Shown one piece after another: positions 49,201 through 55,719 of a stretch of DNA of 64,000 nucleotides. Source of the stretch: Lysobacter sp. MMG2 (GTDB taxonomy: Bacteria > Pseudomonadota > Gammaproteobacteria > Xanthomonadales > Xanthomonadaceae); assembly GCF_016735495.2 (NCBI RefSeq), contig NZ_JAERQY020000003.1, forward strand, positions 310,001-374,000. The letters are read 5' to 3'. Each line of letters begins with the position of its first letter. Position 1 is the stretch's first letter. Below the pieces are notes generated by a model. It searched no databases, was not told where the DNA came from, and was given only the letters and a program-made list of their open reading frames with translations. The position numbers and the translations under genes are program-made.

Positions 49201-51726
<2,526 letters not shown>

Positions 51727-51794: not shown

Positions 51795-52907
51795 TCAGGA
51801 TTCAACGGCGACGACTGCGCCTTGTTCCACGTGGAACATATGAATCGGCGTATCCATCGAAAGCCCCGGTGGGCGCTCGGTGCCGGTGATGAACACCTGC
51901 GCGCCGCTGGCCTGGAGGCGAGCCAGGACCCTACCTTGATGGTGGCGATCCAGTTCGGATGCAAGGTCGTCCAGCGCCACCACCGGCCATTCGCCCTGCA
52001 CCGCATCGTGGTGCTCCGCCTGCGCCAGCAAGGCGGCCAGGGCGGTCAGCTTCGATTGCCCGCGCGACAGGGCCTCCCGGCCGGGAAGGGCACCGAACAC
52101 GACCCGCCAATCCGCACGGTGCGGGCCGACACTGGTGAAGCCCGAGGCCACGTCGCGGTCGCGTGCCAGCAGGAGCGCGTCGGCTAACGACATCTCGTCC
52201 CGACGCCAGCCCGGGATGTACTCCATCCGGCTCAGGCCCAACGCCGGGGCCAGCTCGGCGAGCAAGGCTTCGAACCGGGGCTGGAGGAGATCGAGGTAGC
52301 GCTCGCGGAAGCGGCCCAGCGGCTCGCCGGCTTCTGCCAGCTCATGATCCCAGGCATCAAGCTGTGCATCGCGGGCCCGCGCCTTCAGGAGCGCGTTGCG
52401 CTGCTTGAGTGCACGGTTGTAGCGCCGCCAGATCAACAGGAAGTCATGTTCCACGTGGAACAGTCCCCAATCGAGGTACCTCCGGCGGAATTCACCACCG
52501 CCGGTGATAAGCGCATGGCTCCCGGGCTCAAAGGTCACCACTGCCAAGGCCGCACAGAGGTCGCCCAGCTGGCCGACGCTGGCTCCGTCTAGCCGGCCGG
52601 TCCATTCCTGCCCGGTATGTCGAAGGCCCGCGCGGCGCGTCCGTGCGCCTGAAGGCGTTGAAGACAGCGCTCCCAGACGTTCCTGCCATTCGACAAAGAC
52701 CTCCAGGCCCGGTTCGCCCGCCCGGATCAAGCCATCCCGCACGCGCCCCCGGAAACTGCGGCCGTAGGCCATCAGATGCAGGGCTTCGAGCACGGACGTC
52801 TTGCCCGCGCCGTTGTCGCCGGTGATGAGGTTCAGGCCAGGGGCGGGATCGAGGCGGACTTCCTGGAAACGGCGCAGTTGGCGCAGCTCGAGTCGGGTGA
52901 CGTGCAT
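51795..52907 (-). CDS. recF: RecF, DNA replication and repair protein
   Basis: This 370-residue SMC-like ATPase has Walker A GDNGAGKTS (30-38), signature-like LSRGQSKL and Walker B PVVALDDLASELD. It binds single-strand/double-strand junctions and helps load RecA at gaps. The ATG at 52907 begins VTRLELRQLRRF, the standard RecF start. Two parS-like 16-mers lie inside the frame, encoding FHVEH (150-154) and FHVEQ (358-362). The gene follows dnaN after a terminator and is followed by gyrB. Confidence 0.95.
   Translation of the reverse strand: MHVTRLELRQLRRFQEVRLDPAPGLNLITGDNGAGKTSVLEALHLMAYGRSFRGRVRDGLIRAGEPGLEVFVEWQERLGALSSTPSGARTRRAGLRHTGQEWTGRLDGASVGQLGDLCAALAVVTFEPGSHALITGGGEFRRRYLDWGLFHVEHDFLLIWRRYNRALKQRNALLKARARDAQLDAWDHELAEAGEPLGRFRERYLDLLQPRFEALLAELAPALGLSRMEYIPGWRRDEMSLADALLLARDRDVASGFTSVGPHRADWRVVFGALPGREALSRGQSKLTALAALLAQAEHHDAVQGEWPVVALDDLASELDRHHQGRVLARLQASGAQVFITGTERPPGLSMDTPIHMFHVEQGAVVAVES
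51823..51838. other. parS-like site within the 3' end of recF
   Basis: TGTTCCACGTGGAACA is a perfect 16-bp palindrome and one substitution per arm from the canonical ParB-binding consensus TGTTTCACGTGAAACA. It encodes residues 357-362 of RecF. ParB-parS nucleates origin segregation, and the site lies about 4 kb from the putative origin. Confidence 0.85.
52447..52462. other. parS-like site within the middle of recF
   Basis: This is a second identical 16-bp palindrome, TGTTCCACGTGGAACA, encoding the FHVEH stretch at RecF residues 150-154. It lies 624 bp from the first. Confidence 0.85.
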
Positions 52908-52929
52908 TGGGCCCAGTTTAGCGGAGCGA

Positions 52930-52961
52930 CAAAACAAAACGCCCGGCACAAGGCCGGGCGT
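52930..52961 (-). terminator. Rho-independent terminator between dnaN and recF
   Basis: On the minus strand ACGCCCGGC (52961-52953) pairs with GCCGGGCGT (52947-52939) over a five-base loop and runs into TTTTGTTTTG (52939-52930). It lies 25 bases past dnaN and only 23 bases before the recF start, so recF is probably expressed from its own promoter or by partial read-through. Confidence 0.85.
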
Positions 52962-52964
52962 CGA

Positions 52965-52980
52965 TGTTCCACGTGAAACG
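52965..52980. other. parS-like site (imperfect) just after dnaN
   Basis: TGTTCCACGTGAAACG matches the parS consensus with two differences, one of them at an end position. It lies between the dnaN stop (52986) and the terminator. It is the third site within 1.2 kb. Confidence 0.75.
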
Positions 52981-52985
52981 TCGCG

Positions 52986-54086
52986 TCAGAGGCGTAGCGG
53001 CATCACGACATGGCGGCAGCGATCGTTAGCGGCTTCCCGCACCAGGGCCGAGGAGTTGGCGTCGCGCAGGGCGATGACCACGTGCTCGTCCTTCAGCGCG
53101 CTCAGCGCGTCGAGGAGGTAGTTCACGTTGAAGCCCACCGCCAGGTCGTCGACTCGGGTGTCGGCTTCGACTTCTTCCTGCGCCTCTTCCTGCTCCGGGT
53201 TATGGGCGCTGATCTTCAGCTGGCCCGGCGAGACTTCCAGCCTCACGCCGCGGTACTTCTCGTTCGACAGGATCGCAGCGCGCTGCAGCGACGCACGCAG
53301 CACTTCGCGGTCGATGCGGATCTCGCGGTCGGCGCCGATCGGAATCACCGCTTCGTAATCCGGGAAACGGCCATCGATGAGCTTGCTCGTGAAGGTGACA
53401 TCGTCCCGCTTCACGCGCAGATGGCCACGGCCCATCTCCAGTTCCACCTCGCGCTCGCCGCCTTCCAGCAGACGCTGCAGTTCCTGCACACCCTTGCGCG
53501 GCACGATCAGCTGGCGCTTGGTCTGGCCGCCGTTTTCCAGGGGCGACTCGCACAGCGCCAGGCGATGGCCGTCGGTGGCCACGCAGCGCAGGGAGGACTC
53601 GCGCAGGTCGAACAACAACCCGTTGAGGTAGTAGCGCACGTCCTGTTGCGCCATCGCAAACGCGGTGCGCTCGATCAGTTCCTTCAGTGCCGCTTCCGGC
53701 ACGCGGACGCGCTCGTTGGCCTCGACCTCGTCGATCGACGGGAAATCATTGGCCGGCAGGCTCGACAGCGTGAAGCGCGAACGTCCCGCTTGGACGGTGA
53801 TCTTTTCCGCCGACTGCGAGACGGTGACCTTGCTGCCGTCGGGCAGGGCACGAACGATCTCGAACAGCTTGCGTGCCGGGATCGTGGTCTCGCCGTCTTG
53901 CGCGTCGTCCACCAGTACGCGAGAGACCATCTCCACTTCCAGGTCGGTACCGGTCAGCGAGAGCTGTCCGTCCTTCACCTGTACCAGCAGATTGGCCAGC
54001 ACCGGCAGGGTCTGGCGGCGCTCGACGACGTTGACGACTTGAGCGAGCGGCTTGAGAAAGACTTCGCGTTGAAGGGAAAAACGCAT
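52986..54086 (-). CDS. dnaN: DNA polymerase III beta subunit (sliding clamp)
   Basis: This 366-residue protein, the normal length, has the three-domain clamp pattern: MRFSLQREVFLKPLAQVVNVVERRQTLPVLANLL, the middle-domain TDGHRLA and the C-terminal block with FNVNYLLDAL and a final VVMPLRL. It forms the ring that tethers polymerase to DNA. The 301-bp gap to dnaA is unusually long and AT-richer, holding DnaA-box-like sites. Confidence 0.97.
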   Translation of the reverse strand: MRFSLQREVFLKPLAQVVNVVERRQTLPVLANLLVQVKDGQLSLTGTDLEVEMVSRVLVDDAQDGETTIPARKLFEIVRALPDGSKVTVSQSAEKITVQAGRSRFTLSSLPANDFPSIDEVEANERVRVPEAALKELIERTAFAMAQQDVRYYLNGLLFDLRESSLRCVATDGHRLALCESPLENGGQTKRQLIVPRKGVQELQRLLEGGEREVELEMGRGHLRVKRDDVTFTSKLIDGRFPDYEAVIPIGADREIRIDREVLRASLQRAAILSNEKYRGVRLEVSPGQLKISAHNPEQEEAQEEVEADTRVDDLAVGFNVNYLLDALSALKDEHVVIALRDANSSALVREAANDRCRHVVMPLRL

Positions 54087-54387: not shown

Positions 54388-55719
54388 TCACTCGCTGAGC
54401 TTGCGGATCAGCTTGTCCCAGTCTTCGCGCAACTTGCCGTCGGTCTCCATCAGCGTGCGGATCTGACGGCAGGCATGCAGCACCGTGGTGTGGTCGCGGC
54501 CGGCGAAGGCGTCGCCGATCTCCGGCAGGCTGTGTTCGGTCAGTTCCTTGGCCAGCGCCATCGCCATCTGGCGCGGGCGCGCCAGCGAGCGCGTGCGGCG
54601 CTTGGACAGCAGATCCTTCATCTGCAGGCCGTAGTAGTCCGCCACGGTCTTCTGGATGTTGGGAATGCCGATGGCCTGCTGCTGTGCGCGCAGCAGGTCG
54701 CGCAGGGTTTCCTGGGCGAACTCCACCGTGATCGCGCGGCCGGTGAAATTGGCGCGCGCGGCAAGCGTGTTGAGCGCACCTTCCAGATCGCGCACGTTGC
54801 TGCGCATCTTCTTGGCGATCAGGAACGCGACTTCCTCGGGAATGTGCGCGCCGCGCTCCTGAGCCTTGGACAGCACGATCTGCGCGCGCGTCTCGAAGTC
54901 CGGCGGCTCGATCGCCACGCTCAGGCCCCAGGCCAGGCGCGACTTCAGGCGCGGCTCCAGGCCTTCGACTTCGCGCGGGTAACGGTCGCAGGTGAGGATG
55001 ATCTGCTGCTTGCCGTCGAACAGCGCGTTGAAGGTGTGGAAAAACTCCTCCTGCGTGCGGTCCTTGCCGGCGAAGAACTGGATGTCGTCGATCAGCAGCG
55101 CGTCGACCTGCTGGAACTGGCGCTTGAACGCGTCCATGGTCTTGTCCTGCAGCGCCTTCATCATCGCGCTGAAGAACTGCTCGCTGCGCAGATAGAGCAC
55201 GCGCATCTTCGGGTTCGCCGCGCGCATGGCGTTGCCGGCGGCGAACATCAGGTGCGTCTTGCCCAGGCCCGTGCCGCCGTACAGCAGCAGCGGGTTGTGG
55301 GAGCGGTCGCCCGGCTTGAGCGAGGCCTGCCAGGCGGCGGCGCGGCCGAGCTGGTTGCTTCGGCCCTCGACGAAATTCTCGAAGGTGTAGTGGTTGTCGA
55401 GGTGGCCGTTGAACGGCTCGCTCGGCACGGCACGCGTGGTGGGCGCGACCAGTGCGGCCGGCTCCGGCGCGGGCGGCGCGGCGCGCGGGAGGGAACCGAT
55501 CTCCAGGCTCACCTCGCCGCTGCCGGCGAAGTAGGCCAGCAGCTCGCGGATACGCGAGAGGTAGCGTTCGCGCACATGTTCGACGACGAAAGCGTTGGGT
55601 GCGTAGAGCACCGTCATGTCATCGCGCTGGGTCGCCTGCAGGGGCTTGAGCCAGGTGTGGACATCCTCGGCCGGGAGTTCGGCTTCAAGGCGTTCGAGGC
55701 AGCGGGGCCAGGCATCCAT
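54388..55719 (-). CDS. dnaA: Chromosomal replication initiator DnaA
   Basis: This 443-residue protein has domain I (about 1-80), a short linker (80-105) and the AAA+ domain with Walker [10 protein letters not shown] (148-156) and Walker [12 protein letters not shown]. The C-terminal DNA-binding domain has [23 protein letters not shown], the DnaA signature. It melts oriC and loads DnaB. Domain II is short compared with E. coli (467 residues), as usual in xanthomonads. The ATG at 55719 begins [11 protein letters not shown]. Confidence 0.97.

Follow-up and report, generated by a model that had tools for sequence, protein, structure and literature searches.

parS-type sites within recF and their probable imprint on the RecF protein in Lysobacter and other Gammaproteobacteria

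Genes and parS-Type Sites at the Locus

The window, a stretch of 64,000 nucleotides from Lysobacter sp. MMG2, contained a recF gene at 51795–52907 on the minus strand, which encoded 370 amino acids from an ATG at 52907. Its product matched the TIGR00611 equivalog with 318.3 bits (cut-off 172). ORFs of dnaN (beta clamp, 52986–54086), dnaA (54388–55719), and gyrB (49201–51723) were found on the same strand, and the resulting order dnaA–dnaN–recF–gyrB is the one usual on the origin side; the score and the gene order together identified recF. The nearest RecF belonged to a Lysobacteraceae bacterium (87% identical) among 80 named loci, which had been found partly by the pattern FH[VSN]E and served as named examples only. 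An AlphaFold2 model of RecF, built from 23 RecF sequences, had a mean pLDDT of 91.1.

Two 16-bp palindromes, both exact matches to TGTTCCACGTGGAACA on the minus strand, were located inside recF. Site 1 (52447–52462) encoded F150, H151, V152, and E153 by the codons TTC CAC GTG GAA (DNA 52460–52449), followed by the CA- of H154; in the model, these residues formed the end of helix 138–152 and the turn before helix 156–175. Site 2 (51823–51838) encoded F358, H359, V360, and E361 by the same four codons (DNA 51836–51825), with the ATG of M357 before and the CA- of Q362 after, and fell in strand 355–361 of a C-terminal hairpin. A third parS-type site, TGTTCCACGTGAAACG (52965–52980, no strand assigned), lay in the gap that separates the start of recF from the stop of dnaN and had two mismatches to either form of parS, TGTTTCACGTGAAACA or TGTTCCACGTGGAACA. 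The initial annotation, made from the sequence of the window, had proposed two perfect palindromes in one frame of recF, both reading FHVE, and a third 16-mer beside the gene; pattern matching and the RecF translation confirmed all three.

The three sites stood within 1.2 kb, beside dnaN and dnaA, that is, on the origin side as judged by gene order. With up to three mismatches allowed, 0.07 matches per window were expected by chance, and none of 100 shuffled windows reached three matches. The search for further copies suggested in the initial annotation was extended to the whole 4.17-Mb genome; at up to two mismatches, it returned the three sites of the window and, on another contig, a single asymmetric match with two mismatches. 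The 16-mers are assigned to parS from their sequence, their place, and the genome context.

A profile search of the whole genome gave no ParB match within the window, in line with the earlier statement that parA and parB are absent from it. The sole ParB match of the genome (G000:C4:183455) was encoded on the same contig, about 178 kb from recF; it was above the cut-off of TIGR00180 (5.8e-60) and below that of the Noc model TIGR04285 (225.3 bits, cut-off of 315). A ParA-like frame, recognised by its KGGVGKT motif, was found just upstream of parB, and this frame and the TIGR00180 match mark a cognate parA–parB pair.

The two recF sites were present in 29 of 29 loci of the bacterium's own family. 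A further parS near the recF start occurred in 10 of the 29, at differing distances and within the fetched flanks, and the Xanthomonas and Stenotrophomonas loci carried one further upstream. The place of the third, intergenic site is not conserved.

Samples of RecF Sequences

The genomes compared were species representatives, many of them fragmented. The first set of 221 RecF sequences consisted of the RecF of the window, 60 loci, and 160 genome stretches: 110 sequences were taken from the 297 genomes of the class above the TIGR00611 cut-off, among the higher-scoring matches listed, and the other 110 from the 147 genomes of its own order above the same cut-off. A further 50 sequences (271 in total) comprised E. 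coli RecF and 49 from 52 chosen genomes; these had been picked mostly for having at most one canonical parS or for lacking a ParB match, two of them being comparison genomes, and G144 and G225 were not included, while G344 already belonged to the first set. The last 22 sequences (293 in total) were those above the cut-off among 31 genomes chosen for lacking the site-1 pattern.

Codon Constraint under the Sites

FHVE was encoded at site 1 in 179 and at site 2 in 175 of the 221 RecFs of the first set, and FHVK in 25 and 29, respectively. Thus, FHV[EK] was found in 204 of 221 sequences at either place, and the second stretch is as conserved as the first; the initial annotation had assigned the second to a variable end of RecF, which these counts contradict.

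Synonymous variation was compared across 85 conserved RecF columns (columns in which one residue prevailed in 70% or more of the rows, M and W excluded; n = 221). The lowest values belonged to the six H, V, and E codons of the two sites: the ratio of their synonymous entropy to the pooled value was 0.049–0.154, the next column had 0.515, and the median was 0.98. The F codons, in which parS allows C or T, were ordinary in this respect (0.955 and 0.947 at the two sites). Among 271 RecFs, 433 of the 451 FHV[EK] stretches were written as CAC-GTG-RAA, whereas the codon usage of the individual genes predicted 40.5; in the quartile of lowest GC3, CAC-GTG was kept in 81 of 90 cases versus 11.2 expected. 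Both sites were exact in 193 of the 271 genes. When one gene was taken per group (109 groups, corresponding to families, the window and E. coli each forming one of its own), FHV[EK] was present in 81 representatives at site 1 and 84 at site 2, of which 74 and 72, respectively, had the exact core. The DNA at the recF sites is therefore conserved beyond coding need. The initial annotation had called for such a comparison of synonymous change and had named free synonymous variation under a retained FHVE as the contrary outcome; in the class sample, the result was the opposite.

RecF Residues at Lost and Altered Sites

Part of the association between parS and FHV[EK] follows from the genetic code, because in this fixed frame a parS core can encode nothing but FHV[EK]. 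What is informative is the near absence of FHV[EK] stretches that lack a parS core. The 293 RecFs contained 472 FHV[EK] stretches, of which 446 had the exact core, 25 were within two bases of it, and 1 was beyond. Counted from the DNA, 94 aligned sites differed from the core by more than two bases, and FHV[EK] was encoded at 1 of them; the 94 omit 6 of the 42 site-2 places in the first 271 sequences, where the four residues were unalignable. In these 271 sequences, FHV[EK] was found at none of the 37 lost places at site 1 and at none of the 36 at site 2 whose four residues could be aligned; in the further 22, at 0 of 15 and 1 of 6, respectively. The lone exception (L356, genome G678) had FHVE at site 2 over DNA four bases off. 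At most places without parS DNA, H-V-E was replaced by unrelated residues. Phenylalanine was retained at 33 and valine at 1 of the 37 lost site-1 places in the first 271 sequences, and F150 was present in all 221 RecFs of the first set.

The RecF of E. coli K-12 contained FHNE and FTVE over DNA resembling decayed sites; according to PMC3909081, the Enterobacteriaceae have no chromosomal par genes. Four other RecFs, 74–82% identical to that of E. coli and likely from Enterobacteriaceae (L364, L367, L366, and L358 of genomes G657, G682, G544, and G734), had FRVE at site 2, where the DNA differed from parS by one to three bases, as in TGTTCCGCGTGGAACA. Such near-matches suggest that the decay is slow or that some protein constraint acts at site 2.

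Genomes without a ParB match gave a mixed control for site loss. Eight of them were represented among the RecF sequences: canonical recF sites were absent from four, one had a single site, and three had both. The latter three were assemblies of 190–410 contigs, where parB may be missing. In the group f46 (L236, L227, L223, and L211; genomes G045, G168, G257, and G331), the ParB matches fell far short of the usual strength (E 5e-34 to 2e-37), canonical parS was absent, and RecF had FYLD or FYHK at site 1; these genomes may use a different centromere. A parS-like 14-mer was found inside recF between the usual positions in L245 (G228:C14:147794) and L232 (G307:C56:20315), and G228 had lost both usual recF sites.

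In 13 genomes, the core differed from the canonical one at one recF site or at both. Genome G084 had CATATG at both sites and FHMK in both peptides; G307 and G022 had CACATG at both sites and FHME in both peptides; GTA was found at both sites in G148 and CAT at both sites in G162. The relaxed pattern matched recF alone in 9 of the 13 (G148, G162, G003, G307, G022, G354, G029, G050, and G314) and was also found outside recF in G084, G005, G340, and G196. Three other genomes (G141, G239, and G315) had core variants outside recF only, and their RecF residues at the sites were unrelated.

recF as Carrier of parS in the Class

In the 115 genomes with both a genome-wide parS count and recF, 190 of the 246 canonical parS were at these two recF positions, and in 78 of the 115, all canonical parS were there. 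The site-1 pattern was not found outside the class: all 28 matching genomes of the 249 sampled phylum-wide were Gammaproteobacteria.

Twenty stretches around parS were compared, with the dnaA, dnaN, and gyrB ORFs of the window as queries for origin genes; 14 of them came from 13 recF-less genomes (best RecF-family match 1.4e-11 or weaker). In 9 of the 13, one or two parS were located in the gap between dnaN and gyrB, where no recF match was found: two sites in L272–L278 and L283, one in L282. The parS stretches of the other four (G357, G290, G091, and G351) contained none of the four origin genes. Among the remaining six stretches, four had recF and two had no origin gene. In L283, the two parS were 722 bp apart without a recognisable recF between them; remnants of recF sought in this gap amounted to short weak matches only. 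Canonical parS cores were unusually many for the class in G100 (12), G241 (8), and G290 (7), and four of the copies in G290 (L280) were spaced 62 bp.

Origin of the Conserved Residues

It is very probable that the two origin-side parS, being under selection as DNA, hold CAC-GTG-RAA and hence the H-V-E/K of RecF. ParB would nucleate on the two 16-mers, and ParA would then segregate the origin. Because their frame within recF is fixed, ParB would read the same bases that encode RecF residues 150–153 and 358–361. Selection on this DNA would keep CAC-GTG-RAA and with it H-V-E/K, and the F at site 1 would be held mostly by RecF itself. Once parS is lost or moved, the RecF residues at the site would drift; where the parS core changes, RecF would change with it. 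In Lysobacter, ParB is the probable binder, in view of the presence of parAB and the identity of the 16-mer with a bound site of Pseudomonas aeruginosa, and losing the sites would presumably cost the cell in segregation.

The six least variable codons, the 433 of 451 stretches written as CAC-GTG-RAA, and the near absence of FHV[EK] without parS (1 of 94) give good support to the view that selection on parS has caused the H-V-E/K residues. The proposal that selection for ParB binding has shaped RecF, or fixed its end, accordingly stands as regards the shaping; its limitation to the end falls, as both places are shaped.

A combined history, in which RecF once favoured an FHVE-like stretch that eased the formation of parS, and ParB binding took over the constraint afterwards, seems to us possible but rather unlikely. 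The protein constraint on F at site 1 and the partial motifs FHNE, FTVE, and FRVE that persist in E. coli and its relatives fit it; however, these motifs look equally like decayed parS, and other families without parS rarely keep V at site 1. Very unlikely is a need of the RecF protein for FHVE at both places, with the parS-like DNA as a by-product of codon preference. The invariant F150, the F retained at lost sites, the FHNE and FTVE of E. coli, and the one FHVE standing without parS DNA (L356) would agree with such a need; yet synonymous variation is nearly absent in these six codons only, H-V-E yields to unrelated residues at most places of DNA loss, an exchange of V for M at both sites accompanies changes of the core, and nine of the recF-less genomes keep the sites in the same gap. 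As the sole cause, the protein need is contradicted by the codon entropy, the excess of CAC-GTG-RAA over expectation, and the 1 in 94.

Slighter still is the probability that something else at the DNA or RNA level preserves the palindromes, such as another regulator, an mRNA hairpin, or a methylation site. A self-complementary sequence of 16 bases is in principle readable by other proteins, and no evidence for such a role was found; against it, ParB of P. aeruginosa has been shown to bind this very 16-mer with top affinity (PMC4368675). The sites also stand in the dnaN–gyrB gap of recF-less genomes; they can thus be kept without serving recF mRNA, and a role there was rejected as a necessary one. 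Chance or a recent duplication within this genome, which the identity of the two 16-mers might recall, is practically refuted by the 0.07 expected matches, the 29 of 29 own-family loci, and the 193 of 271 genes with both sites exact.

Comparison with Known Systems

The recF gene of P. aeruginosa contains parS1 and parS2 (PMC5521831, PMC3909081). Its parS2 is TGTTCCACGTGGAACA, the identical 16-mer, and belongs to the top class of ParB affinity; any one of parS1–4 is sufficient for segregation (PMC4368675). The intragenic parS of P. aeruginosa were mutated without changing the protein. In recF of P. aeruginosa PA7, we found two sites 630 bp apart at positions corresponding to sites 1 and 2. Strain PAO1 has ten parS and the Lysobacter genome three by the pattern used. 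In Xanthomonas citri, parS was reported at the 3′ end of dnaN (PMC3937727), which matches the location of the third, intergenic site of Lysobacter. This dnaN-end site is the one named in the text available for X. citri; the loci of X. euvesicatoria and X. albilineans carry two recF sites.

In eukaryotes, duons, or exonic transcription factor sites, are binding sites in coding sequences that constrain codons. The recF sites share with them that one stretch of DNA is both protein code and protein-binding site. They differ from duons in being a bacterial centromere, in their class-wide occurrence, and in being tied to the identity of residues beyond codon choice.

The presence of parS in recF is thus already known from P. 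aeruginosa; the holding of RecF residues by parS is apparently unreported. The accounts of P. aeruginosa, in their available parts, are silent on it, PMC7022226 makes no mention of recF, and no report of parS constraining RecF residues was found in the openly licensed papers searched, and an earlier mention is possible. The recF sites are a natural example, and a clear one, of conserved amino acids that seem to be set by a DNA-binding site and not by the function of the protein; internal controls are given by the loss of parS, its relocation, the change of its core, and the absence of the host gene. They also show how a conserved residue of RecF, and perhaps of other proteins encoded on the origin side, may be mistaken for a functional one.

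Possible Covariation of ParB, parS, and RecF

Position 174 of ParB was leucine in 43 of 43 genomes with the canonical core versus 6 of 15 with a variant core (p 4.7e-7, uncorrected for relatedness); some other ParB columns also differed between the two groups, at weaker p. In phylogenetically independent pairs, the relation between position 174 and a variant core was not significant (3–4 usable pairs), and the co-change stays a lead, as independent pairs on the tree are too few. The position directly follows a conserved asparagine and corresponds by alignment to residue 179 of Caulobacter ParB. In that protein, a lysine at residue 179 was reported to permit the change to the Noc site (PMC7383237).

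A wider reading is that recF doubles as the chromosome centromere across Gammaproteobacteria and that ParB specificity, parS, and the two four-residue stretches of RecF evolve as a unit, with a change at position 174, in the part of ParB that reads DNA, going together with a core change at both sites and a fixed amino-acid exchange in RecF, a repair protein unrelated to ParB; we regard this as equally apt to prove right or wrong. The recF sites can serve as a marker for following the evolution of ParB specificity.

The last residue of the stretches varied with the phenylalanine codon, E accompanying TTC and K accompanying TTT. At site 1, 131 genes had TTC with E, 3 TTC with K, 55 TTT with E, and 29 TTT with K; at site 2, the numbers were 136, 7, 45, and 24, respectively. 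Pooled over GC3 deciles, 53 TTT-K combinations were observed versus 32.2 expected (z 6.3), with p from 7e-5 to 1 in single GC3 strata. In independent pairs, the link was not significant at either site: 3.8 pairs changed the same way and 0.2 the other way at site 1 (median p 0.125), and 2.8 versus 1.4 at site 2 (median p 1). The same E or K stood at both distant sites in 182 of the 193 genes in which both were exact.
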